From: Olsenella profusa DSM 13989
GTDB lineage: Bacteria; Actinomycetota; Coriobacteriia; Coriobacteriales; Atopobiaceae
Direction: 5' to 3'
Assembly: GCF_030811115.1 (NCBI RefSeq)
Contig: NZ_JAUSQK010000001.1
Coordinates: forward strand, 1,984,001-2,048,000
DNA length: 64,000 nt
Shown: positions 30,493-62,956 of the stretch, one piece after another
Numbering within the stretch: the stretch's first letter is position 1
Layout of the letters: each line of letters opens with the position of its first letter
Made by a program: the position numbers and the translations under genes
The notes under the pieces: model-generated
What the model was told of the DNA's origin: nothing
Database searches by the model: none
The model's input: only the letters and a program-made list of their open reading frames with translations

Positions 30493-31806
30493 ATGGCAAA
30501 GTTGAGGATAGTTCACTACATCAACCAGTTCTTTGCCCAGATTGGCGGTGAGGAGAAGGCTGACTACCCCCTGGAATACCGCGATGGCAAGTACGTGGGT
30601 CCGGGACTGGCGTTCATGCAGGCATGGGGTAACGAGGCCCAGATCGTCGGCACCATCGTATGTGGCGACAGCTACTTCGGCGAGAACATCGACAAGGCGA
30701 CGTCCGAGGTCGTGGAGATCGTCAGAAAGGCCAAGCCCGACCTGTTTCTGGCTGGTCCCGGCTTCAATGCCGGACGCTACGGCGTAGCCTGCGCCACGGC
30801 CTGCGCCGCCGTCGAAGAGCGGCTGGGCATCCCCACGCTCACGGGCCTCTACGTGGAGAACCCTGGCGTCGACATGTTCCGCGACAAGATCTACATCGTC
30901 TCTACCAAGAATAGTGCCGCCGGCATGCGCGGCGCCGTCAAGGTCATGGCGCCGCTCGCGCTCAAGCTTGCCCGTCACGAGAGGATCGGCGCCTCGGTGG
31001 AGGAGGGCTACATCCCCCGCGGGCAACGCGTCAACTTCTTCGAGAGAGAGCGTGGCGCAAGGCGCGCTGTCGACATGCTCATCAAGAAGCTGGGCGGGCG
31101 TCCGTTCGTCACGGAGTATCCCATGCCCTCCTTTGACAGGGTGAATCCTGTCTCTCCCGTCACGGACCTCTCGCACACAAAGGTGGCCCTCGTGACCTCG
31201 GGTGGCATCGTGCCCAAGGGCAACCCCGACCACATCGAGAGCTCAAACGCCTCCCACTTTGGTGAATACGATATCACGGGCGTCATGGACCTCACGTCCG
31301 ATGCCTATGAGACCGCCCACGGCGGATACGATCCGGTCTGCGCCAACGAGGACGCCGACCGCGTCTTGCCTGTCGACGTCATGCGCGACCTCGAGCGCGA
31401 GGGGGTCATCGGCTCTCTTCACAACAAGTTCTACACTACGGTCGGTAACGGCACCGCCGTCGCATCCGCAAAGAAGTTTGGTGGGGAGATAGCCCAGAGG
31501 CTCAAGGAGGACGGTGTCCAGGCCGTCATACTCACCAGCACTTGAGGCACCTGCACTCGTTGCGGCGCAACGATGGTCAAGGAAATCGAGCGTGCGGGCT
31601 TCCCCGTGGCTCATATGTGCACGGTCACGCCAATCTCGATGACGGTTGGGGCAAATCGCATCGTCCCGACGATTGCGATTCCCCATCCTTTGGGCGACCC
31701 CTCCCTGGATGCCGACGACGAGAAGAAGCTCCGTCGCGAGCTCGTCGAGAAGGCCCTGGGGGCGCTTGGGACCCCCATCGACAAGCAGACGATCTTCGAG
31801 GACTAA
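30493..31806 (+). CDS. grdB: Glycine reductase component B gamma subunit, selenoprotein GrdB, Sec351
   Basis: A 437-residue selenoprotein. The TGA at 31543-31545 (codon 351) lies in TST-U-GTCTRCGATMVKEIER, the family UxxCxxC active site, and the same frame continues 87 codons to TAA at 31806 with conserved GANRIVPTIAIPHPLGDPS. Protein B activates glycine and passes a carboxymethyl group to Sec44 of GrdA. It starts at an ATG behind TAGGAGGTAGG and is paralogous to the gene at 15238. Conceptual translation stopping at the TGA would lose the catalytic residue. Confidence 0.94.
31547..31568 (+). promoter_or_regulatory. Candidate SECIS hairpin in grdB
   Basis: Same layout as at 16301-16322: outer arms GCACC/GGCGC (one A-C mismatch), bulged T, inner GCA/TGC and CTCGT loop, beginning two bases after the TGA. 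Confidence 0.5.
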
Positions 31807-33582: not shown

Positions 33583-34062
33583 ATGGGCAAACTCGATGGT
33601 AAGAAGGTCGTTGTCATTGGCGATCGCGATGGCGTTCCCGGCGAGGCAATTTCTGCCTGCGCCGAGACCGCTGGTGGCGAGATTGTGTTTTCCTCGACGG
33701 AGTGCTTCGTTTGAACTTCCGCTGGCGCAATGGATCTTGAGAACCAGAAGAGGGTCAAGGAGTTCGCAGAGAAGTACGGTCCCGAGAACGTTGTCGTTCT
33801 CGTTGGTGCCGCAGATGGCGAAGCTGCCGGACTCGCCGCAGAGACGGTTGAGAATGGCGACCCCACGTTCGCAGGTCCATTGACGGGAGTCCAGTTGGGA
33901 CTCGCTTGCTACCACGTGGTTGAGCCGAACGTCAAGGCATGGTTTGACGCCGATGTCTACGACGAACAGGTCTCCATGATGGAGATGGTCCTCGATGTTG
34001 ACGATATCGTCAGCGAGATGACCGACATTCGCTCTGAGTTCTGCAAGTATCCTCTGGATTAA
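33583..34062 (+). CDS. grdA: Glycine/sarcosine/betaine reductase component A, selenoprotein GrdA, Sec44
   Basis: A 159-residue selenoprotein that carries the carboxymethyl group between protein B and protein C. The TGA at 33712-33714 is codon 44, in the invariant [16 protein letters not shown] context, with Cys41 and Sec44 as the redox pair; codon 44 is where the family places Sec. The remaining frame runs to TAA at 34062. It begins behind GAGGAGGAAAAG. There is only one grdA in the window, so it probably serves both component-B systems. A strong hairpin follows. Confidence 0.94.
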
Positions 34063-37125: not shown

Positions 37126-37368
37126 CTAGTCCTCGCGGGCGAAGACCTTGCGGTAGCCCTCCTCTTCCTCCTCGAAGATGCCCTCCACCTCCTCGGGCAT
37201 GGTGGGCACGGGACAGGGCCTCTCCCCCTCATAGCGCACGCAGGTGCCACAGCTGCTGCTGAGCGCCCGAGGGACGGGGCCCATCCTCGCCGACCACCCA
37301 GCCTTCTGGCACAGGCCATGAAAGCGGATTGCCCCGAAGTGGGAGTAGAAGAGGGCGACGTAGCGCAT
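37126..37368 (-). CDS. DUF3343 protein, putative Se/S carrier-like
   Basis: An 80-residue protein: RYVALFYSHFGAIRFHGLCQ opens it, and the family pattern MGPVPRALSSSCGTCVRYEG follows, with two close cysteines. Such proteins are encoded beside Sec genes and are suspected of binding selenium or sulfur; no reaction is proven. It has a run of acidic residues near its end. It is the last gene of a minus-strand trio with the TusA-like and YedE genes. Confidence 0.75.
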   Translation of the reverse strand: MRYVALFYSHFGAIRFHGLCQKAGWSARMGPVPRALSSSCGTCVRYEGERPCPVPTMPEEVEGIFEEEEEGYRKVFARED

Positions 37369-37373
37369 GGGCG

Positions 37374-37580
37374 CTACTTGGTGAGGGTGAGGGTGGTCGA
37401 GCCGTCCTCCTCGGTGGCCTCGACCGCATAGCCCTGGCTCGTGGCGAAGCGTGTCACGTTCTCCTTGGCCGCCACGGCATCGACCAGGACGGTGAGCTGG
37501 GCGGGGGAGGACTTGAGGGCGTTCCTCGTGAGGACGACGGGCTCGGGGCAGGACAGGCCGCGTGCATCGATGACATCCAT
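37374..37580 (-). CDS. TusA/SirA-like sulfurtransferase (selenium-associated)
   Basis: A 68-residue protein with the family core DARGLSCPEPVVLTRNALK, whose Cys in CPEP would carry a persulfide or perselenide. It starts at the minus-strand ATG at 37580, four bases after yedE, and ends five bases before the DUF3343 gene. In this context it probably relays selenium from import or desulfurases toward SelD, which is an inference. Confidence 0.82.
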   Translation of the reverse strand: MDVIDARGLSCPEPVVLTRNALKSSPAQLTVLVDAVAAKENVTRFATSQGYAVEATEEDGSTTLTLTK

Positions 37581-37584
37581 GGGG

Positions 37585-38676
37585 CTACTCCTTGGCTTTG
37601 CCGTAGGTGTTCGCCACGCCGATGAGCGCGACGACGACGATTCCGATGATGACCGCCACCATGCCGTTGGGGGTGGGACCCTTGCCGCTGGCGGCGAGGC
37701 CAAAGTTGTGCGCGAAGGCGGCGCCCACGAAGAGGCCGAGGATCGCCGTGGCGCTGTCGGTGTTGCCCTCGCCGGAGAGGACGAGCTGGCGCAGAGGGCA
37801 GCCGCCGAGCAGGACGCAGGCGAAGCCGGCGAGGAACATGCCGAGGGCGTTCCAGAGACCGTCGGTGTGGGCGACGGGCTGGTCGGCAAAGCCGGGGTTG
37901 AAGAGGGGCGTTCCCGTCGCAGCGCCGATGATGAGGTTGCACACGAGGGCGCTCACGAGGATGGCCACGAAGCCGAGGATGAGCTTGGTCTCGCGGAAGA
38001 GGACGAGGTCCCTGATGCCGCCCACCATGCACAGGCGCGTACGCTGCGCGAGCGCGCCCACGACGAGGCCGGCGACGAGGCTGATGGCGATGGCGGCGTG
38101 GAGGGCACCCGGGCCCTCACCGGTCGCGGTGAAGTGGATGAAGTCGGGGGCAACCACGAGCAGGACGAGGAGGGCGATGACGGCGATCGGCAGAAGACCG
38201 CCCTCCAGCTGGGGCATCCTGTGGCTGCGTCCGAGCGAGTACCCCTTGTTGAGGAAGAACACGCCACAGAGGATGCCGCAGACGAAGCCGACGAGGCCGA
38301 GGATGGCGTTGAGGTCGCCACCTGCGAGGCGCAGGATCATGCGGAAGGGGCAGCCAAGGAACATCAGGCAGCCCACCATGGCGAAGAAGCCAAGCGCGAA
38401 CCTCGTGATGGGCGCGGAGCCGCCGCGCGGGGCGAACTCCCTGTGCGCGCAGGCCATGGCCAGGCTGCCCAGGATGAGGCCGATGATCTCGGGCCGGATG
38501 TACTGCACGGCGGCAGCCTGGTGCAGGCCCACCGCACCTGCCGTGTCGCGCAGGAAGCAGGCGATGCAGAAGCCCATGTTGCGGGGGTTCCCGAACAGGA
38601 CGAGCAGCGCCGCGATGATGCCAATCACGATGCCCGCGCCGACGATCGCATACCTCTCCCTCTTTGCCGTTTCCAC
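37585..38676 (-). CDS. yedE: YedE family selenium-associated membrane protein
   Basis: A 363-residue protein with about ten helices, related to the YeeE/YedE thiosulfate-type transporters and thought to import a selenium compound. Conserved cysteines lie in MGFCIACFLRDTAG, MFLGCPFRMILRLAGGD and LLGGCPLRQLVLSGEGNTDS; the paired GCP(F/L)R motifs are the family hallmark. It leads the minus-strand trio and is divergent from the desulfurase at 38796, with a 12-base palindrome (CTTCGATCGAAG, 38686-38697) between them. Confidence 0.88.
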   Translation of the reverse strand: METAKRERYAIVGAGIVIGIIAALLVLFGNPRNMGFCIACFLRDTAGAVGLHQAAAVQYIRPEIIGLILGSLAMACAHREFAPRGGSAPITRFALGFFAMVGCLMFLGCPFRMILRLAGGDLNAILGLVGFVCGILCGVFFLNKGYSLGRSHRMPQLEGGLLPIAVIALLVLLVVAPDFIHFTATGEGPGALHAAIAISLVAGLVVGALAQRTRLCMVGGIRDLVLFRETKLILGFVAILVSALVCNLIIGAATGTPLFNPGFADQPVAHTDGLWNALGMFLAGFACVLLGGCPLRQLVLSGEGNTDSATAILGLFVGAAFAHNFGLAASGKGPTPNGMVAVIIGIVVVALIGVANTYGKAKE

Positions 38677-38795
38677 CGTTCCCTCCTTCGATCGAAGAAT
38701 TTCAACCTTGTATCAATTCTATACCTTTATTATGGATATGATTACTTTTCGTGTCCGCAGGCGGTGAGTGGGGGAGAAGCGGGGGTGGAGTGCCC

Positions 38796-39962
38796 ATGAG
38801 CATCTATCTTGACAATGCTAGCACAACATTTCCCAAGCCCGAGGTGGTGCCCCAGGCGGTCGTGGACTACATGACGCGGATGGGCGCCAACGTGGGACGC
38901 GGGTCATATGGGGAGGCCTATAGGGTCGAGTCGATGGTCTACGAGACGCGCGAGCTCATCGCAGGGCTCTTTGACGCGTCCGACTGTCGCAACGTGGCCT
39001 TCACGCGCAACGTGACGGAGGGCCTCAACGCCCTCATCAAGGGCTATCTCCACGCGGGGGATCACGTGATCGTCTCCTCCATGGAGCACAACGCCGTCAT
39101 GAGGCCCCTCGTCCAGGTGGGGCGCTGGGGCGTCTCGTTCACACGGGCGCCCTGTGACGGGACGGGTGCCCTCATCCTGGATGAGCTGGAGGGCTGCCTG
39201 CGTCCCAACACAGTGGCCGTCATCATGCTGCACGCGAGCAACGTGACGGGCACGGTCATGCCCGCCGCCGAGGTAGGCGCCTTCTGCCATGCCCATGGGC
39301 TGCGCTTCTTCCTGGATACGGCACAGTCGGCGGGGGTCATTCCCGTGGACATGGGCTCCATGGGCGTCGATGCCGTTGCCTTCACGGGCCACAAGGCGCT
39401 GCTGGGTCCCCAGGGGATAGGCGGCCTCGTGCTCGCCGAGGACCTGGTGGGCCAGCTCGAGCTGCTCGTGACGGGTGGCACGGGGAGCATGAGCCACAGG
39501 GAGGAGACACCCAGCTTCATGCCCGATCGCATGGAGGCCGGCACACCCAACCTCCCGGGCATCGCCGGCCTGCACGCCTCGCTGGGCTGGCTGCGCACGC
39601 GGGGCATCGACTCCGTGCGCGGGCACGAGCTTGCGCTGGTGGGACGCTTCCTCGAGGGCGTCCGGGCACTTGAGGCGAAGGGCCTCGTGCGTCTTGTGGG
39701 CAGGCACGACTGCGAGGGCAGGGTGGGCGTCGTCTCCGTGGCGACGCCCCAGGCGGACGCGGCCGAGGTGGCGGGTCTCATGGAGGAGCGCTTTGGCATC
39801 CTCACGCGGGTGGGTCTCCACTGCGCCCCTTCGGCGCACAGGACCTGTGGCACCTACCCCGCGGGGACCATCCGCTTCTCCTTCGGCTTCGCCAACGACG
39901 AGGACGACGTGGATGCCGCCCTCGCTGCGCTCGAGGCGTGCTGTCGGGATCAGGGCAGGTAG
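38796..39962 (+). CDS. Cysteine desulfurase-like class V aminotransferase (selenium-associated)
   Basis: A 388-residue PLP enzyme of the NifS/SufS fold, which could take S from cysteine or Se from selenocysteine. It begins SIYLDNASTTFPKPEVV, holds the PLP lysine in AFTGHKALLGPQGIGGL and the catalytic cysteine in VGLHCAPSAHRTCGT. The ATG at 38796 opens the conserved start. A paralogue is encoded at 58547 next to yedF. The neighbours (yedE, TusA-like, selD) suggest it delivers selenium for selenophosphate. Confidence 0.88.
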   Translation: MSIYLDNASTTFPKPEVVPQAVVDYMTRMGANVGRGSYGEAYRVESMVYETRELIAGLFDASDCRNVAFTRNVTEGLNALIKGYLHAGDHVIVSSMEHNAVMRPLVQVGRWGVSFTRAPCDGTGALILDELEGCLRPNTVAVIMLHASNVTGTVMPAAEVGAFCHAHGLRFFLDTAQSAGVIPVDMGSMGVDAVAFTGHKALLGPQGIGGLVLAEDLVGQLELLVTGGTGSMSHREETPSFMPDRMEAGTPNLPGIAGLHASLGWLRTRGIDSVRGHELALVGRFLEGVRALEAKGLVRLVGRHDCEGRVGVVSVATPQADAAEVAGLMEERFGILTRVGLHCAPSAHRTCGTYPAGTIRFSFGFANDEDDVDAALAALEACCRDQGR

Positions 39963-40076: not shown

Positions 40077-41129
40077 ATGTCCACAAAGGAAGTCAGGCTC
40101 ACCGAGCTGACCAAGGCGGCCGGTTGAGCCGCCAAGCTGGCACCTGGTGCCCTTGCGCAAGTTTTGCGCAACCTGCCCAACCTGCGTGATGACCGCATGC
40201 TCATCGGCTACGACACGGCGGATGACGCCTGTGTGTATCAGGTGAGCGATGACCTCGTCCTCATCAACACCGTCGACTTCTTCCCGCCCATGGTGGATGA
40301 CCCGTTCACCTTCGGCCAGATCGCGGCGGCCAACGCCCTCTCCGACGTGTGGGCCATGGGCGGCACGCCCACCATGGCCATGAACCTCCTCTGCTTCCCC
40401 AACTGCCTTGACGTGGAGGTGGCGGGCGAGATCCTCGCTGGCGGCTCCGACAAGGCCATGGAGGCGGGCTGCACCATCGCCGGAGGGCACACCATATCGG
40501 ATGACGAGCCCAAGTATGGCATGTGCGTCACGGGCTTCGCCAAGCCCGAGGAGATCCTCGCCAACGCCGGCGCCCATGAGGGTGACCTCCTCGTGCTCAC
40601 CAAGGAGATCGGTACGGGCGTCCTCACGACGGCCATCAAGGGCGGCGAGATCACCGACGAGCGCCTGGAGCGCCACGTGGTCGACAACATGCGCACACTC
40701 AACAAGTACGGTGCGGAGGCGGCTCGTGGGCTCAAGCTCCACGCCTGCACGGACATCACGGGCTTTGGCCTAGCCGGTCACCTCTGTGAGATGGCCGAGG
40801 GAGCGGGGCTCACGGCCACGCTCCATGCGAACAGGGTGCCCCTGCTGCCGCGTGCCCTCGACATGTCGCGTATGGGCATGCACCCCCAGGGCACCTATAA
40901 CAACCGTGGCTACTTCATGGACCGCGTGACGTTCGACGAGGGTGTCGACCAGGCGCGTGCGGACCTCATGTACGACCCGCAGACCTCGGGTGGCCTGCTC
41001 TTCGCCCTTCCCGAGATCGATGCCAACCTGCTGGTGGACCGCCTGGGCCTGCAAGGCATCCGCGGCGCCATCGTGGGCGAGTTCGCGCCGCGCGAGGAGG
41101 GCGCTCCCTTCGTGCGTGTGGTGCGGTAG
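40077..41129 (+). CDS. selD: Selenide, water dikinase, itself a selenoprotein (Sec17)
   Basis: A 350-residue enzyme that makes selenophosphate from selenide and ATP. The TGA at 40125-40127 is codon 17 in LTKAAG-U-AAKLAPGAL, exactly where other SelD proteins have catalytic Cys or Sec before a conserved Lys. After it come the metal/ATP motifs DDACVYQV, TVDFFPPMVDDPFTFGQIAA and ANALSDVWAMGGTP, and FGLAGHLCEMAEG. The ATG at 40077 follows GGAGGTGGGG. If the stop were taken literally the protein would begin at residue 30 without its active site. Sec-SelD makes the enzyme dependent on its own product. Confidence 0.93.
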
Positions 41130-41255: not shown

Positions 41256-41726
41256 GTGATCACGATAGAGGTCCCCGCACGAGGGACGCTGAGGATTTCC
41301 AAGCTGGTCCTCGACTACAACGGCACGATTGCCATGGATGGTGCCCTTGCGCGTGGCGTGAGCGAGAGGATCCATCGCCTGTCTCGTGCCATTGGGGACA
41401 TCGTCGTCGTGACCGCTGACACCTATGGTACGGTTGCGCGCGTATGTGCGGAGCTCCCGGTACGCGTCGTCACCTTCCCATCTGGGGAGGCTGCGGGCGA
41501 GAAGGCTCGCATCGTGCAATCCCTGGGCGGCGAAGTCTGCTGCATGGGCAATGGCTATAATGACAGGCTCATGTTCGACGCGGCGGCGCTCTCGATTGCC
41601 GTCATGGATGCGGAGGGGACGTCTGCGGCGCTTCTGCCCCATGCCGACATCCTGGCGCGCAGCGCAGCGGAAGCGCTCGATCTTCTGCTCAACGTCGACA
41701 GGATGCGGGCGACGCTCAGGGGGTAG
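41256..41726 (+). CDS. HAD-like phosphatase (soluble P-type ATPase-like)
   Basis: A 156-residue HAD-superfamily protein. The first motif reads LVLDYNGTIAMDG, with the nucleophilic Asp but Asn in place of the usual second Asp; the last reads CCMGNGYNDRLMFD with the metal Asp. This variant resembles the small family likened to P-type ATPase catalytic domains, whose role is unknown. It starts at a GTG after AAGGTGAGG. It is followed closely by the glycosyltransferase, so the two may be cotranscribed. Confidence 0.7.
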   Translation: MITIEVPARGTLRISKLVLDYNGTIAMDGALARGVSERIHRLSRAIGDIVVVTADTYGTVARVCAELPVRVVTFPSGEAAGEKARIVQSLGGEVCCMGNGYNDRLMFDAAALSIAVMDAEGTSAALLPHADILARSAAEALDLLLNVDRMRATLRG

Positions 41727-54041: not shown

Positions 54042-54136
54042 GGGAGTAGATGGGTGACTGGTGTGCCCTCTGGTCTTCAAAACCAGTATGGGCAGGAAAC
54101 TGCTCGGGTGGGTTCGATTCCCACATGCTCCCGCCA
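54042..54136 (+). tRNA. selC: tRNA-Sec (anticodon UCA)
   Basis: A 95-base tRNA. The anticodon stem-loop CTGGT-CTTCAAA-ACCAG contains TCA, which reads UGA. The long variable arm GGGCAG-GAAA-CTGCTC, the T arm GTGGG-TTCGATT-CCCAC, and an acceptor stem of seven to eight pairs (GGGAGTA with TGCTCCC, then G and encoded CCA) mark it as tRNA-Sec rather than tRNA-Ser. It precedes selA by 84 bases and has its own promoter and terminator. Confidence 0.95.
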
Positions 54137-54220: not shown

Positions 54221-55630
54221 ATGGTGGACCACAACCTATTGCGCAGGATTCCCAAGATGGACGTGGTGTTGGGGCAGGAGTGCATCGCCCAGCTCCTTAC
54301 GGAGGCCTCCCCGGAGCAGGTCAAGGCCTTCGTACGTGACGAGCTCGAGGGTCTGCGCAGGCGAGTGCTCGCAGGTGAGGTCACCTCCGTGTCCGAGCCC
54401 GACGACCTCTGCGAGGTCATCGCCCGTGACTTCAAGCGCAGGGGACCCTATCACCTGCGTCGCGTCATCAACGCCACCGGCATCGTGCTGCACACCAACC
54501 TCGGTCGCGCTCCCCTCGGCCGCGAGGTGGCCGAGCACGTGGCGGATGTCGCCTCGGGCTACTCAAACCTCGAGTACGACCTCGACGCCGGCGAGCGCGG
54601 CTCGCGCTACACCCACCTCGAGCGCCTCATCTGCGAGCTCACAGGTGCCGAGGATGCGATGGTCGTCAACAACAACGCCGGTGGCGTCTTCCTCATGCTC
54701 GACACCCTCTGCAAGGGGGAGGGCGTGGCCGTCTCCAGGGGCGAGCTCGTGGAGATCGGCGGCTCCTTCCGCGTGCCCGACATCATGGCTCGCAGTGGCG
54801 CCCGTCTCGTGGAGGTGGGCACCACCAACAAGACGCACCCGACGGACTACGAGCACGCGATGGCCGAGCAGGGCGTCACCACCCTGCTCAAGGTTCACAC
54901 CTCGAACTTCGTGATGCGTGGCTTCACCGAGAGCGTCTCCGTGACCGAGCTCGCGGACCTGGCACGGCCCTCCGGCGCCCTCGTCCTCTACGACGTGGGG
55001 TCCACCTTCCTCTTCCCGGGCGAGGCCTTCGGCATCCCGGGCGCCCAGACGGTGCGCGGCGCCCTCTCCGAGGGGGCCGACCTGGTGAGCTTCTCGGGCG
55101 ACAAGCTGTTGGGCTCTGCCCAGGGCGGCCTCATCGTCGGCCGCCGCGCGCTCATCGAGAGGATCAAGAAAAACCCCCTCACGCGCATGCTCAGGATCGA
55201 CAAGCTCTCGCTGGCCGCGCTTGAGATGACGCTGCAGCTGAGCCGCAGCGAGCGCAGCGCCAAGGAGCAGGTGCCCACCCTCAGGATGCTCGCGATGACG
55301 CGCGAGGACTGTCACCGGCGGGCGCGCGCCCTCGCCGAGGCGCTTGAGACGGGGGTCCCTACCGCCGAGGTAGAGGAGGTCGAGCTCGAGGACGAGGCGG
55401 GTGGCGGGTCGCTCCCGGGCGTGGAGCTGCCCGGGGCTGGTGTGGCCGTGAGCCTCCCGGGCCTCTCCGCCCGCGAGCTCGAGCTGCGTCTGCGCGGGAG
55501 CGCCACGCCCATCATCGTACGCGTGAAGGATGGGCGCGTGTGCCTGTCGGCGCGCACCCTCCTTTCGGGCGACGTGGAGGAGGTCATCCCCGTGCTCGCC
55601 GACATCGCCCAGGGGGTGGAGCGGCCATGA
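54221..55630 (+). CDS. selA: L-seryl-tRNA(Sec) selenium transferase
   Basis: A 469-residue PLP enzyme that converts seryl-tRNA(Sec) to selenocysteyl-tRNA with selenophosphate. Family stretches are RRVINATGIVLHTNLGRAPL, GYSNLEYDLDAGERGSRYTH and SFSGDKLLGSAQGGLI. The Lys in that last motif is residue 295, the same number as the PLP lysine of the E. coli enzyme, which supports the ATG at 54221 (preceded by GAGGGG). Its last four bases overlap selB. Confidence 0.95.
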   Translation: MVDHNLLRRIPKMDVVLGQECIAQLLTEASPEQVKAFVRDELEGLRRRVLAGEVTSVSEPDDLCEVIARDFKRRGPYHLRRVINATGIVLHTNLGRAPLGREVAEHVADVASGYSNLEYDLDAGERGSRYTHLERLICELTGAEDAMVVNNNAGGVFLMLDTLCKGEGVAVSRGELVEIGGSFRVPDIMARSGARLVEVGTTNKTHPTDYEHAMAEQGVTTLLKVHTSNFVMRGFTESVSVTELADLARPSGALVLYDVGSTFLFPGEAFGIPGAQTVRGALSEGADLVSFSGDKLLGSAQGGLIVGRRALIERIKKNPLTRMLRIDKLSLAALEMTLQLSRSERSAKEQVPTLRMLAMTREDCHRRARALAEALETGVPTAEVEEVELEDEAGGGSLPGVELPGAGVAVSLPGLSARELELRLRGSATPIIVRVKDGRVCLSARTLLSGDVEEVIPVLADIAQGVERP

Positions 55631-57522
55631 AGCACGTCATCATCGGCACGGCGGGCCACGTGGACCACGGCAAGACCTGGCTCACGAAGGCGCTGACGGG
55701 CACCAACACCGACAGGCTCAAGGAGGAGCAGGAGCGGGGCATCACCATCGACATCGGCTTTGCCCAGCTCATGCTCCCCAACAACCAGAGCGCAAGCATC
55801 ATCGACGTGCCGGGGCACGAGGGACTCGTGCGCAACATGATCGTGGGCGCCACGGGCATGGACCTTGTGCTCCTCGTGGTGGCCGCCGACGAGGGCTTCA
55901 TGCCCCAGACGCAGGAACACCTGGAGATCCTGCAGCTCCTTGGCGTGGAGACGGGCATCGTCGTGCTCACGAAGTGCGACGCCGTGGACGGGGAGTGGCT
56001 CGAGGTCGTGGAGGCCGACGTTCGCGACCATGTCGAGGGGACCTTCCTTGAGGGGGCGCCCATCGCCCGCGTCTCCGCGCTCACGGGGGAGGGCATCGAT
56101 GACCTCAGGCAGCTCATCGCCCAGATGGTGGAGCACGCCGTCCCCAAGAACACGGAGCGCGCCTACCGCCTGCCCATCGACCGGAGCTTCTCGAAGAAGG
56201 GCTTCGGTACGGTCGTGACGGGCACGCTCGTGGATGGCACGCTGCGGGTTGGCGACAAGCTCGAGGTCTATCCCACCCATGTGATGACGCGCGTGCGCGA
56301 CCTGCAGAACCACAACGAGTCCGCCCGAGAGATGTATGCGGGGATGCGCGTCGCGGCAAACCTCACGGGGGTCGAGCGTGCCGACGTGCGTCGCGGACGC
56401 ATCATCGCACAGCCTGGCACCGTTGAGGTCACCAGGCGTGTCACCGTCCAGCTGCAGCTTACGAGCGATGCCCCCTTCTCGGTCAAGAACTCCTCGTCCC
56501 TGCACTTCTTCACGGGCACGCAGGAGGTCGTGGGCAGGGTGCGCCTGCTGGAGACGGACGAGATGCAACCGGGTGAGACGGGCTTTGCCCAGCTCTCGTT
56601 CGACGAGGACGTCTCGGCTCGCAACCATGACCGCTTCATCGTGCGCTTCTTCTCGCCCATGGTGACCGTGGGAGGCGGCAGCATCCTGGACATGGCCTCC
56701 GGGAGGCTGAAGCGCAACAACGAGGATGTCATCGCACGCCTGCGCTCCCTTGCGGGAAGCGCCACGCAGCGGGTCGAACAGCGGGTGATCGACGCCCGTC
56801 TCGCGCCCCTGCCACGGCAGGCGCTGTCGGTGATGGAGAACCTCTCTGCGGCCGAGACCGACCAGGTCCTTTCGCCCCTGCTCGACGAGGGCCGCATCCT
56901 TGCGGTGGGAGAGGGGCTCATCTCGGCCGTCTGGTTCGATCGCCTGAGGGACAACGTGCTCGACGTCCTGCGTGGCTACCATGCCGCCCACACCCTCGAG
57001 AGGGGCATCCGCCTGGGCGAGCTGCGCGAGCGTGCGTTCTCGAGCTGTCCCGAATCCGCGGATGCCCTCATCGCCCGGTTCAGGGACGAGGGCCTCATCG
57101 AGATGGGCGGTGGCTGCGTGTGGCTGGCGGGCTTCGCGCCGAGCTTCAGTGCGGAGCAGAGCAGGCTCTACGAGCGTGTGAAGGCGGCCTTTGACGAGAC
57201 GGGGTACGAGGCGCGGGGCAACGACGAGGTCAGGGTCGCGCTGGGCGTTGACGCGCAGCCCTTTGCCGAGGTGTTCGCCCGGTTGCTGGCCGATGGGACC
57301 ATCGTTGCCGTGACGAGCGACTCCTCGGTGGGTGGCGATGCCTATCGCCGGGCGCTCCAGACGTTCCGCTCGATGTTCGAGTCCGATGATCGGGTCACCA
57401 TCGCCCAGTTCAGGGATCGCCTGGGCATCTCGCGCAAGTTCGCGCAGCTGCTCTTGGACTCCTTCGACAAGGCGCGCATCTCCAAGCTCGTGGGGGACGC
57501 CCGCGTCCTGTTGGGCTCATAG
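55627..57522 (+). CDS. selB: Selenocysteine-specific elongation factor SelB
   Basis: A 631-residue GTPase that brings Sec-tRNA to UGA codons marked by a SECIS hairpin. G motifs are GTAGHVDHGKTWL, DVPGHEGLVRNM and TKCD, followed by EF-Tu-like domains (GTVVTGTLVDGTLRVGD) and a C-terminal set of winged helices (TIAQFRDRLGISRKFAQLLL) that binds the mRNA hairpin. Overlaps selA by four bases; yedF follows after 52 bases. Confidence 0.95.
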   Translation: MKHVIIGTAGHVDHGKTWLTKALTGTNTDRLKEEQERGITIDIGFAQLMLPNNQSASIIDVPGHEGLVRNMIVGATGMDLVLLVVAADEGFMPQTQEHLEILQLLGVETGIVVLTKCDAVDGEWLEVVEADVRDHVEGTFLEGAPIARVSALTGEGIDDLRQLIAQMVEHAVPKNTERAYRLPIDRSFSKKGFGTVVTGTLVDGTLRVGDKLEVYPTHVMTRVRDLQNHNESAREMYAGMRVAANLTGVERADVRRGRIIAQPGTVEVTRRVTVQLQLTSDAPFSVKNSSSLHFFTGTQEVVGRVRLLETDEMQPGETGFAQLSFDEDVSARNHDRFIVRFFSPMVTVGGGSILDMASGRLKRNNEDVIARLRSLAGSATQRVEQRVIDARLAPLPRQALSVMENLSAAETDQVLSPLLDEGRILAVGEGLISAVWFDRLRDNVLDVLRGYHAAHTLERGIRLGELRERAFSSCPESADALIARFRDEGLIEMGGGCVWLAGFAPSFSAEQSRLYERVKAAFDETGYEARGNDEVRVALGVDAQPFAEVFARLLADGTIVAVTSDSSVGGDAYRRALQTFRSMFESDDRVTIAQFRDRLGISRKFAQLLLDSFDKARISKLVGDARVLLGS

Positions 57523-60657: not shown

Positions 60658-61269
60658 ATGACTACGACCCCAACGATGTCCTCACACCAGACTCCGGACG
60701 TCGTCACCTGCTGGACGCGTCAGGTGCCCCAGGTGGTGGAGGAGATCGAGAGGACGGGCCGCTATGTGGTGCGCGAGGAGTACGTGCGTGCCAAGAACGA
60801 CACCATATCCGACTATTACCTGGGGCTATATCGGTGGTACACCCACGGGTGCCGGCGCCTCGTCGACATTCCCGCCGACGCGGACCTCCCCATCTGGCTG
60901 GCGCTCACCCCATCGGGACGTCTGGGCATGGTGGAGGGAACCGTGTCCCTTACGCTTGCGGTGCCACGCGACCACCTCTTCGTCCTGGACTATGACAAGT
61001 GGGGCTATCGTGTGAACGACTGGTACGTGCCGTTGGACGAAGCCGACGAGCAGCGCCACAACGAGGAGCTCGCCCGCGTGGGCGTCACCAACGAGTCGCT
61101 GCTCTTCACCAGCGACAAGGGCAACTTCTATCCTGCGCTCAAGCGGAAGATCGAGGCAAGCTGGCAGCGGGTGTTCTCCTCCGCGAACGAGGACATGGAA
61201 AAGAACGTGGGAACGATCTGGGAGATGCGGAAGGAGTGGGTCATCGATGTCGAGCGATGGCATGGGTAG
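60658..61269 (+). CDS. DUF3841 domain protein
   Basis: A 203-residue soluble protein of unknown function: TCWTRQVPQVVEEIERTGRY, YLGLYRWYTHGCRRLVDIP and FVLDYDKWGYRVNDWYVPLD show the family pattern, rich in aromatic residues. A second possible start is the ATG at 60676. Its end overlaps the next gene, a paralogue. The 266-base gap upstream, shared with the TetR gene, contains AT-rich promoter-like sequence (GAAAAATATAATG, about 60491-60503). Confidence 0.78.
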   Translation: MTTTPTMSSHQTPDVVTCWTRQVPQVVEEIERTGRYVVREEYVRAKNDTISDYYLGLYRWYTHGCRRLVDIPADADLPIWLALTPSGRLGMVEGTVSLTLAVPRDHLFVLDYDKWGYRVNDWYVPLDEADEQRHNEELARVGVTNESLLFTSDKGNFYPALKRKIEASWQRVFSSANEDMEKNVGTIWEMRKEWVIDVERWHG

Positions 61270-61897
61270 CGAGGCGCATGGCGCCTCTGCCACGAAGGCT
61301 GACACCATACGCCTCTGGACCGCCCAGGCGCAGGTCGTGCTTGACACGCTCGAGCGCGAGGGTGTCTATCGCGTGAAGATGCGCTTCGTGGACCAGAAGT
61401 TCGGCGACACGGCGTGGATCTTCAGGAAGGCGTACCAGTTCTACGTGCATGGCGCAGAGCGACTCGTGCCGCGTCCCGAGGGCAGCGAGTCGGCTATCTG
61501 GTGCTACCGCAACGCGCGTTGGGCGACGATGGACGAAAACTGCACGCTCCTGCAGCTTGAGGTCCCACGTGACCAGGTGGTGCTCTTCGACCTCAGGAGC
61601 TGGAACCGGATCCTCAACCTTCAGTACATCCCCCTGGACGGCGAGGACGAGCACCGCTGGCGGCATGAGCTCAAGGAGCAGGGCATCACCAACATGAACA
61701 AGGTGTTCCAGACGCCCATGTACCCGTTCCTCAGGCGCAAGGTCGAATCCAGCTGGGAGCGCCTCTTCACGTCCGCGCAGCACTGTGAGGACGAGTACCT
61801 CCAGGCGGGGCTGTGGGAGCTTCGCCCCGAGTGGATCGTGCTCAGGGTGGGCTTTGGGGGAGACTTCACCCCCTATGCCCAGGGGCATGGAGCATAG
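61247..61897 (+). CDS. DUF3841 domain protein, paralogue
   Basis: A 216-residue protein similar over its length to the one before it: RLWTAQAQVVLDTLEREGVY, FRKAYQFYVHGAERLVPRPE and VLFDLRSWNRILNLQYIPLD align with the first copy's motifs. The start at 61247 overlaps the upstream gene by 23 bases; an ATG at 61262 is an alternative. Tandem duplication is likely, but the two have diverged a lot. Confidence 0.78.
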   Translation: MSSDGMGSEAHGASATKADTIRLWTAQAQVVLDTLEREGVYRVKMRFVDQKFGDTAWIFRKAYQFYVHGAERLVPRPEGSESAIWCYRNARWATMDENCTLLQLEVPRDQVVLFDLRSWNRILNLQYIPLDGEDEHRWRHELKEQGITNMNKVFQTPMYPFLRRKVESSWERLFTSAQHCEDEYLQAGLWELRPEWIVLRVGFGGDFTPYAQGHGA

Positions 61898-62050: not shown

Positions 62051-62956
62051 ATGGATTTCAAGCAGCTCCAGTCCTTCGTGACGGTCATCCGGTACGGGAG
62101 CTTTACGAAGGCGGCGGAAAGCCTCTCCATCTCGCAACCCACCATCTCCACCCATGTCCGTGCCCTTGAGGAGGAGCTGGGAACCCCCTTGGTGCTTCGG
62201 ACGGCCAAGCATGTGGAGCTTACCCCCCAGGGCAATCGCGTGTTCGAGCAGGCCGTCACGATGCTCGCCATGCGCGACCGCATGCTCGAGGTCATGCAGA
62301 GCCGCGAGCGCAATGCCATCTATCTGGGCACCTCCTCCATTCCCTCGGCATACATCCTGCCGGAGGCGCTGCCGGAGTACGCGCGCCTGCACCCAGAGAT
62401 CCGCTTCCTGATATACCAGCATGACAGCCAGGACATCGTCAGTGGGCTGACCGAGGGCGTGTACGACGTGGGCCTCACGGGCATGCCAGCGGACGAGCCA
62501 TCGCTCGAATGCGTCGCCTTCTGCAAGGATCACATGGTCATCGTCACCCCTCCCGACGAGCGCTTCTCAGCGTCGCAGGGCGCCCCGATGGAAGTCGCCC
62601 AGAGGCTTCTGACCACGGAGCACATGGTCATTCGCAATGAGGGGAGCGGCAGCCGCGCAACCATGGACAGCATCCTCGACGGCATGGGCATCACAGACGA
62701 GGCGCTCGACATCGTGGCGCGCGTGAACGACCAGGAGACCATCAAGAACCTGGTCGAGAGCGGCTTTGGCATCACCGTGGTATCGTCGCGCGCCGTGCGC
62801 GACCGTGTGGCCGCAGGGCGGCTCCTCCAGTTCGAGATTCCGTGTCCCGCCGCGGAGCGCATGCTCTATCTGGCCTATCGCAAGAACTCGCTCTTTGACG
62901 AGCACGCCCAGGACTTCGTGACCTTCCTGCGTCTCCACTATGCCAGCGAGGGCTGA
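62051..62956 (+). CDS. LysR family transcriptional regulator
   Basis: A 301-residue regulator. The N-terminal winged helix reads MDFKQLQSFVTVIRYGSFTK, then AAESLSISQPTISTHVRALE; the effector domain follows (IYLGTSSIPSAYILPEALPE). The pattern resembles CysB/CysL-like members (selenium metabolism regulators have this form too), but the target cannot be told. GAAGGGTATAGGC precedes the ATG. Confidence 0.9.
   Translation: MDFKQLQSFVTVIRYGSFTKAAESLSISQPTISTHVRALEEELGTPLVLRTAKHVELTPQGNRVFEQAVTMLAMRDRMLEVMQSRERNAIYLGTSSIPSAYILPEALPEYARLHPEIRFLIYQHDSQDIVSGLTEGVYDVGLTGMPADEPSLECVAFCKDHMVIVTPPDERFSASQGAPMEVAQRLLTTEHMVIRNEGSGSRATMDSILDGMGITDEALDIVARVNDQETIKNLVESGFGITVVSSRAVRDRVAAGRLLQFEIPCPAAERMLYLAYRKNSLFDEHAQDFVTFLRLHYASEG

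Follow-up and report, generated by a model that had tools for sequence, protein, structure and literature searches.

Proteins of the DUF3343 family (PF11823) were proposed as chaperones for the trafficking of selenium, or sulfur, by Lin et al. (2015, PMC5322559), who described two clusters in Slackia heliotrinireducens. One comprises Shel_25110 (DUF3343), 25120 (SirA-like) and 25130 (YedE), and the other Shel_25430 (DUF3343), 25440 (Sec lyase) and 25450 (YedF). The same authors noted DUF3343 in organisms lacking SelD and saw no clear selenium branch in the family (PMC5322559). Its present Pfam name, 'Putative Se/S carrier protein-like', is a prediction, and a full-text literature search yielded no experimental study of DUF3343. 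YeeE, a relative of YedE, imports thiosulfate. The TusA-type protein YeeD is its essential partner, docking on the transporter and taking the substrate on the cysteine of its CPxP motif (PMC11073785). For YedE itself, the transcript in Methanococcus maripaludis increased by 5.3 log2 units on selenium depletion, and a deletion mutant showed no clear phenotype with regard to selenium; as of 2024, no transporter dedicated to selenium had been proved (PMC11097638). Bacteria have to hand over selenide, which is toxic and rare, to SelD and at the same time keep it apart from the far commoner sulfide.

Two gene sets and one selD

The window, ie the whole stretch of 64,000 nucleotides of Olsenella profusa DSM 13989 analysed here, contains two parallel sets of genes, each with a DUF3343 protein, a TusA-type domain and a desulfurase. 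Profile scores confirmed both sets, gene for gene and in position, as the sequence-only reading had laid them out. The features are as follows.

30493-31806, GrdB of glycine reductase; Sec351, TGA at 31543
33583-34062, GrdA of glycine reductase; Sec44, TGA at 33712
37126-37368, minus strand, set-1 DUF3343 (PF11823, Se_S_carrier), clade A, SSSCGTC motif, 80 aa; Pfam 52.1 bits
37374-37589, minus strand, set-1 stand-alone TusA-like protein, CPEP motif; PF01206 65.4 bits
37585-38676, minus strand, YedE, predicted selenium-compound transporter; TIGR04112 501.8 bits, curated cut-off 200
38793-39962, plus strand, divergent from yedE, set-1 PLP cysteine desulfurase / selenocysteine-lyase-like protein; TIGR01977 412.8 bits, curated cut-off 377
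40077-41129, plus strand, selD, selenide water dikinase; selenoprotein with Sec17 at the catalytic Cys/Sec position; TIGR00476 380 bits reading through one TGA, cut-off 125
54042-54136, plus strand, tRNA-Sec (selC), anticodon UCA; ARAGORN
54221-55630, plus strand, probable selA, selenocysteine synthase, identified from its sequence and its position relative to selC and selB; start inferred, as an ORF starting at 54050 runs through selC
55618-57522, plus strand, selB, Sec-specific elongation factor; TIGR00475 367.7 bits
57575-58192, plus strand, set-2 YedF, TusA domain (CPIP) and DsrE-like domain (CGTC); TIGR03527 197 bits, PF01206
58204-58443, plus strand, set-2 DUF3343 (PF11823), clade B, AGCGLSW motif, single Cys, 79 aa; Pfam 79 bits
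58547-59692, plus strand, set-2 PLP cysteine desulfurase / selenocysteine-lyase-like protein; TIGR01977 418.2 bits, curated cut-off 377
62051-62956, plus strand, selenium-metabolism-associated LysR regulator (LysR_Se); NF040786 296.5 bits, curated cut-off 250

In set 1 the genes for YedE, the stand-alone TusA-like protein and DUF3343 are packed end to end on the minus strand. The desulfurase, which contains the catalytic-cysteine motif HCAPS, is encoded divergently from yedE, and selD comes after it. The TusA-like protein scores 26 bits against TusA itself and higher, at 61.3 bits, against the YedF model, of which it matches the TusA half only; the latter score does not reach the TIGR03527 cut-off of 110. 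The set-1 DUF3343 protein contains four cysteines in total, rather than the two first counted, and scores 119 bits against the clade A model described below, of which its own sequence is a member row. Set 2 lies directly after the tRNA-Sec, selA and selB genes on the plus strand. Its YedF passes the same cut-off of 110 with a match over all 194 positions of the model (1-194), and its DUF3343 is 100% identical to the protein of Olsenella profusa F0195. The two PF11823 scores are both above the Pfam gathering score of 25 and are the only matches in the host genome, a single contig of 2.6 Mb. Both lie in the window, and other genera as well as Clostridia have each of the two arrangements, which argues against chance.

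The demand for selenium at this locus is real, since SelD is itself a selenoprotein and the selenoproteins GrdA and GrdB are also encoded within the window. An in-frame TGA at 40125 specifies Sec17 of SelD and the true start is at 40077, so the listed ORF at 40164 (356.9 bits with TIGR00476) is only the 3' part of selD. The first 29 residues will be missed by ORF callers, and grdA and grdB are both split under standard ORF calling. RNA folds after the TGA codons of selD and grdB were no better than those of shuffled sequences (z = -0.9 and -1.4); no SECIS element is therefore claimed from folding, and selenocysteine was read instead from the conservation of codon position.

Several neighbouring genes were also noted. 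A small HAD-like protein with similarity to the phosphatase domain of P-type ATPases (38 bits) is encoded just after selD (41256-41726), and two adjacent DUF3841 proteins (60658-61269 and 61247-61897) lie beside the selenium locus. Another full-length YedF-like protein, also above the cut-off at 125.5 bits, is found about 16 kb before the window, at 1967179-1967772 of the contig. Elsewhere in the genome there is a stronger match to PF00266 (446 bits) than the two desulfurases of the window, presumably the housekeeping enzyme.

Subfamilies, partners and distribution of DUF3343

DUF3343 was first compared with selD across genomes, using P-values which throughout ignore phylogeny. In the class to which the window belongs, and which also includes Slackia heliotrinireducens, 107 of 149 genomes contain both DUF3343 and selD, six DUF3343 only, 11 selD only, and 25 neither. 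In the window's order (68 genomes) 48 contain both and 20 contain neither, with no discordant genome (Fisher 1.2e-17, ignoring phylogeny), and four genera (g2, g4, g11 and g17) include genomes of both kinds. The 48/20 division holds equally for full-length YedF. YedE is found in only six of the 48 selD-positive genomes. Set 2 is present in 48/48 and set 1 in six.

The picture in 216 Clostridia is different for the family as a whole. DUF3343 is present in 151 and selD in 54, with both in 51, ie three selD-positive genomes lack DUF3343 and 100 of the 162 selD-less genomes contain it. Family membership was accordingly rejected as a marker of selenium use. The sequence-only reading had named a common occurrence of DUF3343 without selD as the result that would count against its proposal; this is what the family shows, but it does not hold for the two subfamilies present here.

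Those subfamilies were defined in a quick tree of 161 DUF3343 domains, built on 76 columns only. Clade A (10 rows, SH-aLRT 99) includes the set-1 protein and is characterised by SHFGA...SSSCGxC, with one cysteine in some members. Clade B (52 rows, SH-aLRT 99) includes the set-2 protein and is characterised by SAGCGL[SA]W. The DUF3343 sequences of selD-less Clostridia fall outside A and B, in clades of their own. When the 216 Clostridia were searched with a model of each clade, the clade A model gave at least 80 bits in 15 genomes, all 15 of them selD-positive, the next match being at 53 bits; the clade B model gave at least 40 bits in 47 genomes, of which 46 were selD-positive. Both thresholds were picked after the scores had been seen, and some model rows came from the genomes counted (4/15 for clade A and 7/46 for clade B). 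A cysteine after a PxP sequence is invariant in the alignments of both clades. In the CGxC motif of clade A the first cysteine is invariant and the second is present in 10 of 21 clade A proteins (4/15 among those from Clostridia), so a functional signature of two cysteines versus one was rejected.

The subfamilies keep fixed company. The set-1 order, with the desulfurase divergent from YedE-TusA-DUF3343, is found in 15/15 clade A Clostridia. DUF3343 adjoins selD in three loci (L157, L160 and L164), with selD directly 3' of it in the clade A loci L157 and L160. A quick tree of the desulfurases (102 rows, 384 columns) divides in the same way. The set-1 enzymes of Coriobacteriia and Clostridia form one group across both phyla, joined only by L165, and the set-2 enzymes form a clade at 98, which includes the L003 copy matching the set-2 desulfurase of the window. 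As the tree splits by set, the two desulfurases of the window are not recent duplicates. The two sets are, on this evidence, distinct inherited modules common to the window and to distantly related Clostridia. The original view, which assigned these DUF3343 proteins to selenium loci and coupled them with a desulfurase and a TusA-type partner, is borne out.

The pairing with a desulfurase extends beyond selenium users. DUF3343 lies beside a TIGR01977-type desulfurase in 15 of the 29 loci fetched from selD-less Clostridia, and the three such enzymes scanned gave 410-478 bits with that model; in the tree, desulfurases adjoining DUF3343 in these genomes mostly form a third group. The pairing alone is therefore no proof of selenium. 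Nor is DUF3343 indispensable, as eight selD-positive Clostridia are without a clade B match of at least 40 bits and eleven selD-positive Coriobacteriia are without any PF11823 match.

Predicted models of the two proteins (pLDDT 89 and 94) place the conserved cysteine between strands 2 and 3, in the segment that links them. The clade B protein has a small, ferredoxin-like predicted fold of strand-helix-strand-strand-helix-strand, with Cys46 in this link, and in the clade A model a hairpin replaces the second helix. A sequence search found no solved relatives. Metal-handling proteins and PII/CutA-like proteins are among the known structures closest in fold; matches to ferredoxin-like metal chaperones (UreE, Atx1) have Z of 5.7-6.8, with no Foldseek E below 0.001. 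These are generic, and no function is read from them.

Other forms of the family were observed. In Coriobacteriia outside the window's order (L092, L109, L103, L070, L084, L100 and L107) a DUF3343 protein of about 180 aa follows YedE-TusA. It has a C-terminal extension (GGGCPDIPYLN...TLCGLMLDRA), with no Pfam match in the one member scanned. A further clade (SCGMS/CCGIS), some members of which end in RRDxYC, follows a 2-hydroxyglutaryl-CoA dehydratase-like protein (PF06050; L144:5079-5330 and L018:9422-9751). The next gene in L144 encodes a BadF-type ATPase (PF01869), possibly a low-potential reductase partner. In selD-less Clostridia DUF3343 is also found fused to a radical-SAM/BATS protein (L126:3914-5245 and L140:5003-6370), and nine loci (L113, L116, L118, L119, L123, L128, L131, L132 and L136) have DUF3343, mostly of a GGCSYxLRF type, followed by a desulfurase, possibly a sulfur version of the pair.

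Candidate routes of selenium to SelD

Both gene sets probably catch selenium and hand it over to SelD. On balance we favour two parallel selenium-handling modules serving one SelD, with set 2 for core delivery, set 1 for accessory uptake, and both acting through DUF3343. In set 2 the desulfurase would free selenium (or sulfur) from selenocysteine or cysteine, and the cysteine-bound per-selenide would pass to the CPxP cysteine of the YedF TusA domain, then to the single conserved cysteine of DUF3343 and finally to SelD. Set 1 reads, by analogy with YeeE-YeeD, as an uptake relay. A selenium compound would be brought in by YedE, the TusA-like protein at its cytoplasmic mouth would take the selenium atom, in the way that YeeD takes thiosulfate at YeeE, and the clade A DUF3343 would carry it to SelD. 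Set 2 is the apparent core route because it is found in all the selD-positive genomes of the order, in only six of which set 1 occurs, and because it lies beside selC-selA-selB. It had been suggested that one set serves import and the other recycling. Import by set 1 is plausible given YedE, despite the lack of a clear phenotype in the M. maripaludis deletion (PMC11097638), but recycling by set 2 is not supported, given its presence in 48/48 genomes.

An alternative which we regard as rather unlikely is that DUF3343 is a generic acceptor of sulfane sulfur or selenium for TIGR01977-type desulfurases, any specificity for selenium residing in its partners. The adjacent genes and high desulfurase scores in selD-less Clostridia are as this would predict, and a function in either selenium or sulfur is allowed by Lin et al. 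(PMC5322559) and by the Pfam name. Against this, the proteins of selD-less genomes occupy their own clades in the DUF3343 and desulfurase trees alike, and members of clades A and B come almost exclusively from selD-positive genomes. The frequency of the pairing in selD-less loci does favour a general chalcogen-acceptor role for the family, with selenium specialisations. A wider proposal we offer only tentatively. Across bacteria, DUF3343 may be a small acceptor dedicated to the TIGR01977 desulfurases, from which selenium users would have specialised relays (YedE-TusA-clade A for uptake and YedF-clade B as the core), each with its own desulfurase, inherited as units across phyla and bringing protein-bound selenium to SelD, such that free selenide is never released.

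Two further explanations are both improbable in our judgement, and about equally so. DUF3343 might sequester or report reactive selenium, in detoxification or regulation, and not be obligatory for delivery to SelD. Its absence from eleven selD-positive Coriobacteriia and three selD-positive Clostridia would then be expected, and PII/CutA-like and metal-handling proteins are among its nearest folds, if only at the generic level. The strict coupling of its gene to those of TusA or YedF and the desulfurases, its position next to selD in three loci and its lack of a regulatory domain all speak against this. Alternatively, YedE might export excess selenium, a possibility raised by Lin et al. (2015, PMC5322559), and set 1 would be a detoxification module. 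Import of thiosulfate by the related YeeE with its TusA-type partner (PMC11073785) and the induction of yedE by selenium depletion in M. maripaludis (PMC11097638) speak against export.

With two modules that can be separated, and whose subfamilies and signature motifs are defined, the question of selenide delivery can be approached directly. The four small proteins, the two desulfurases and the single SelD could be purified for assay.

Comparison with described systems

The closest precedent is the selenium-homeostasis model of Lin et al. (2015), with which this locus shares the four candidates (YedE, YedF, LysR_Se and DUF3343), the two clusters and the idea of trafficking. All four candidate genes are within the one window. 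The relay was at first thought to be undescribed; in fact that paper (PMC5322559) had already proposed a DUF3343 selenium chaperone and shown both clusters in Slackia. What is new here is the two selenium-linked subfamilies with fixed partners, the co-inherited desulfurases, which split in parallel with them, and the pairing of DUF3343 with a desulfurase in selD-less genomes. As in YeeE-YeeD (TsuA-TsuB), the set-1 YedE belongs to the same transporter superfamily and has a TusA-type cytoplasmic partner. However, YedE scores only 22-33 bits on TsuA models, and set 1, which lies next to selD, has DUF3343 and a desulfurase in addition. Both window desulfurases resemble the selenocysteine lyase SclA (NF040779), with 373 and 357 bits, but as the curated cut-off is 525 neither is assigned to it. 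In the IscS-TusA and DsrE/TusA relays a desulfurase passes sulfur to the CPxP cysteine of a TusA protein, and YedF is itself a TusA domain joined to a DsrE-like one; the sets described here differ in their link to SelD and in that DUF3343 would stand in for the usual acceptors or act after them.
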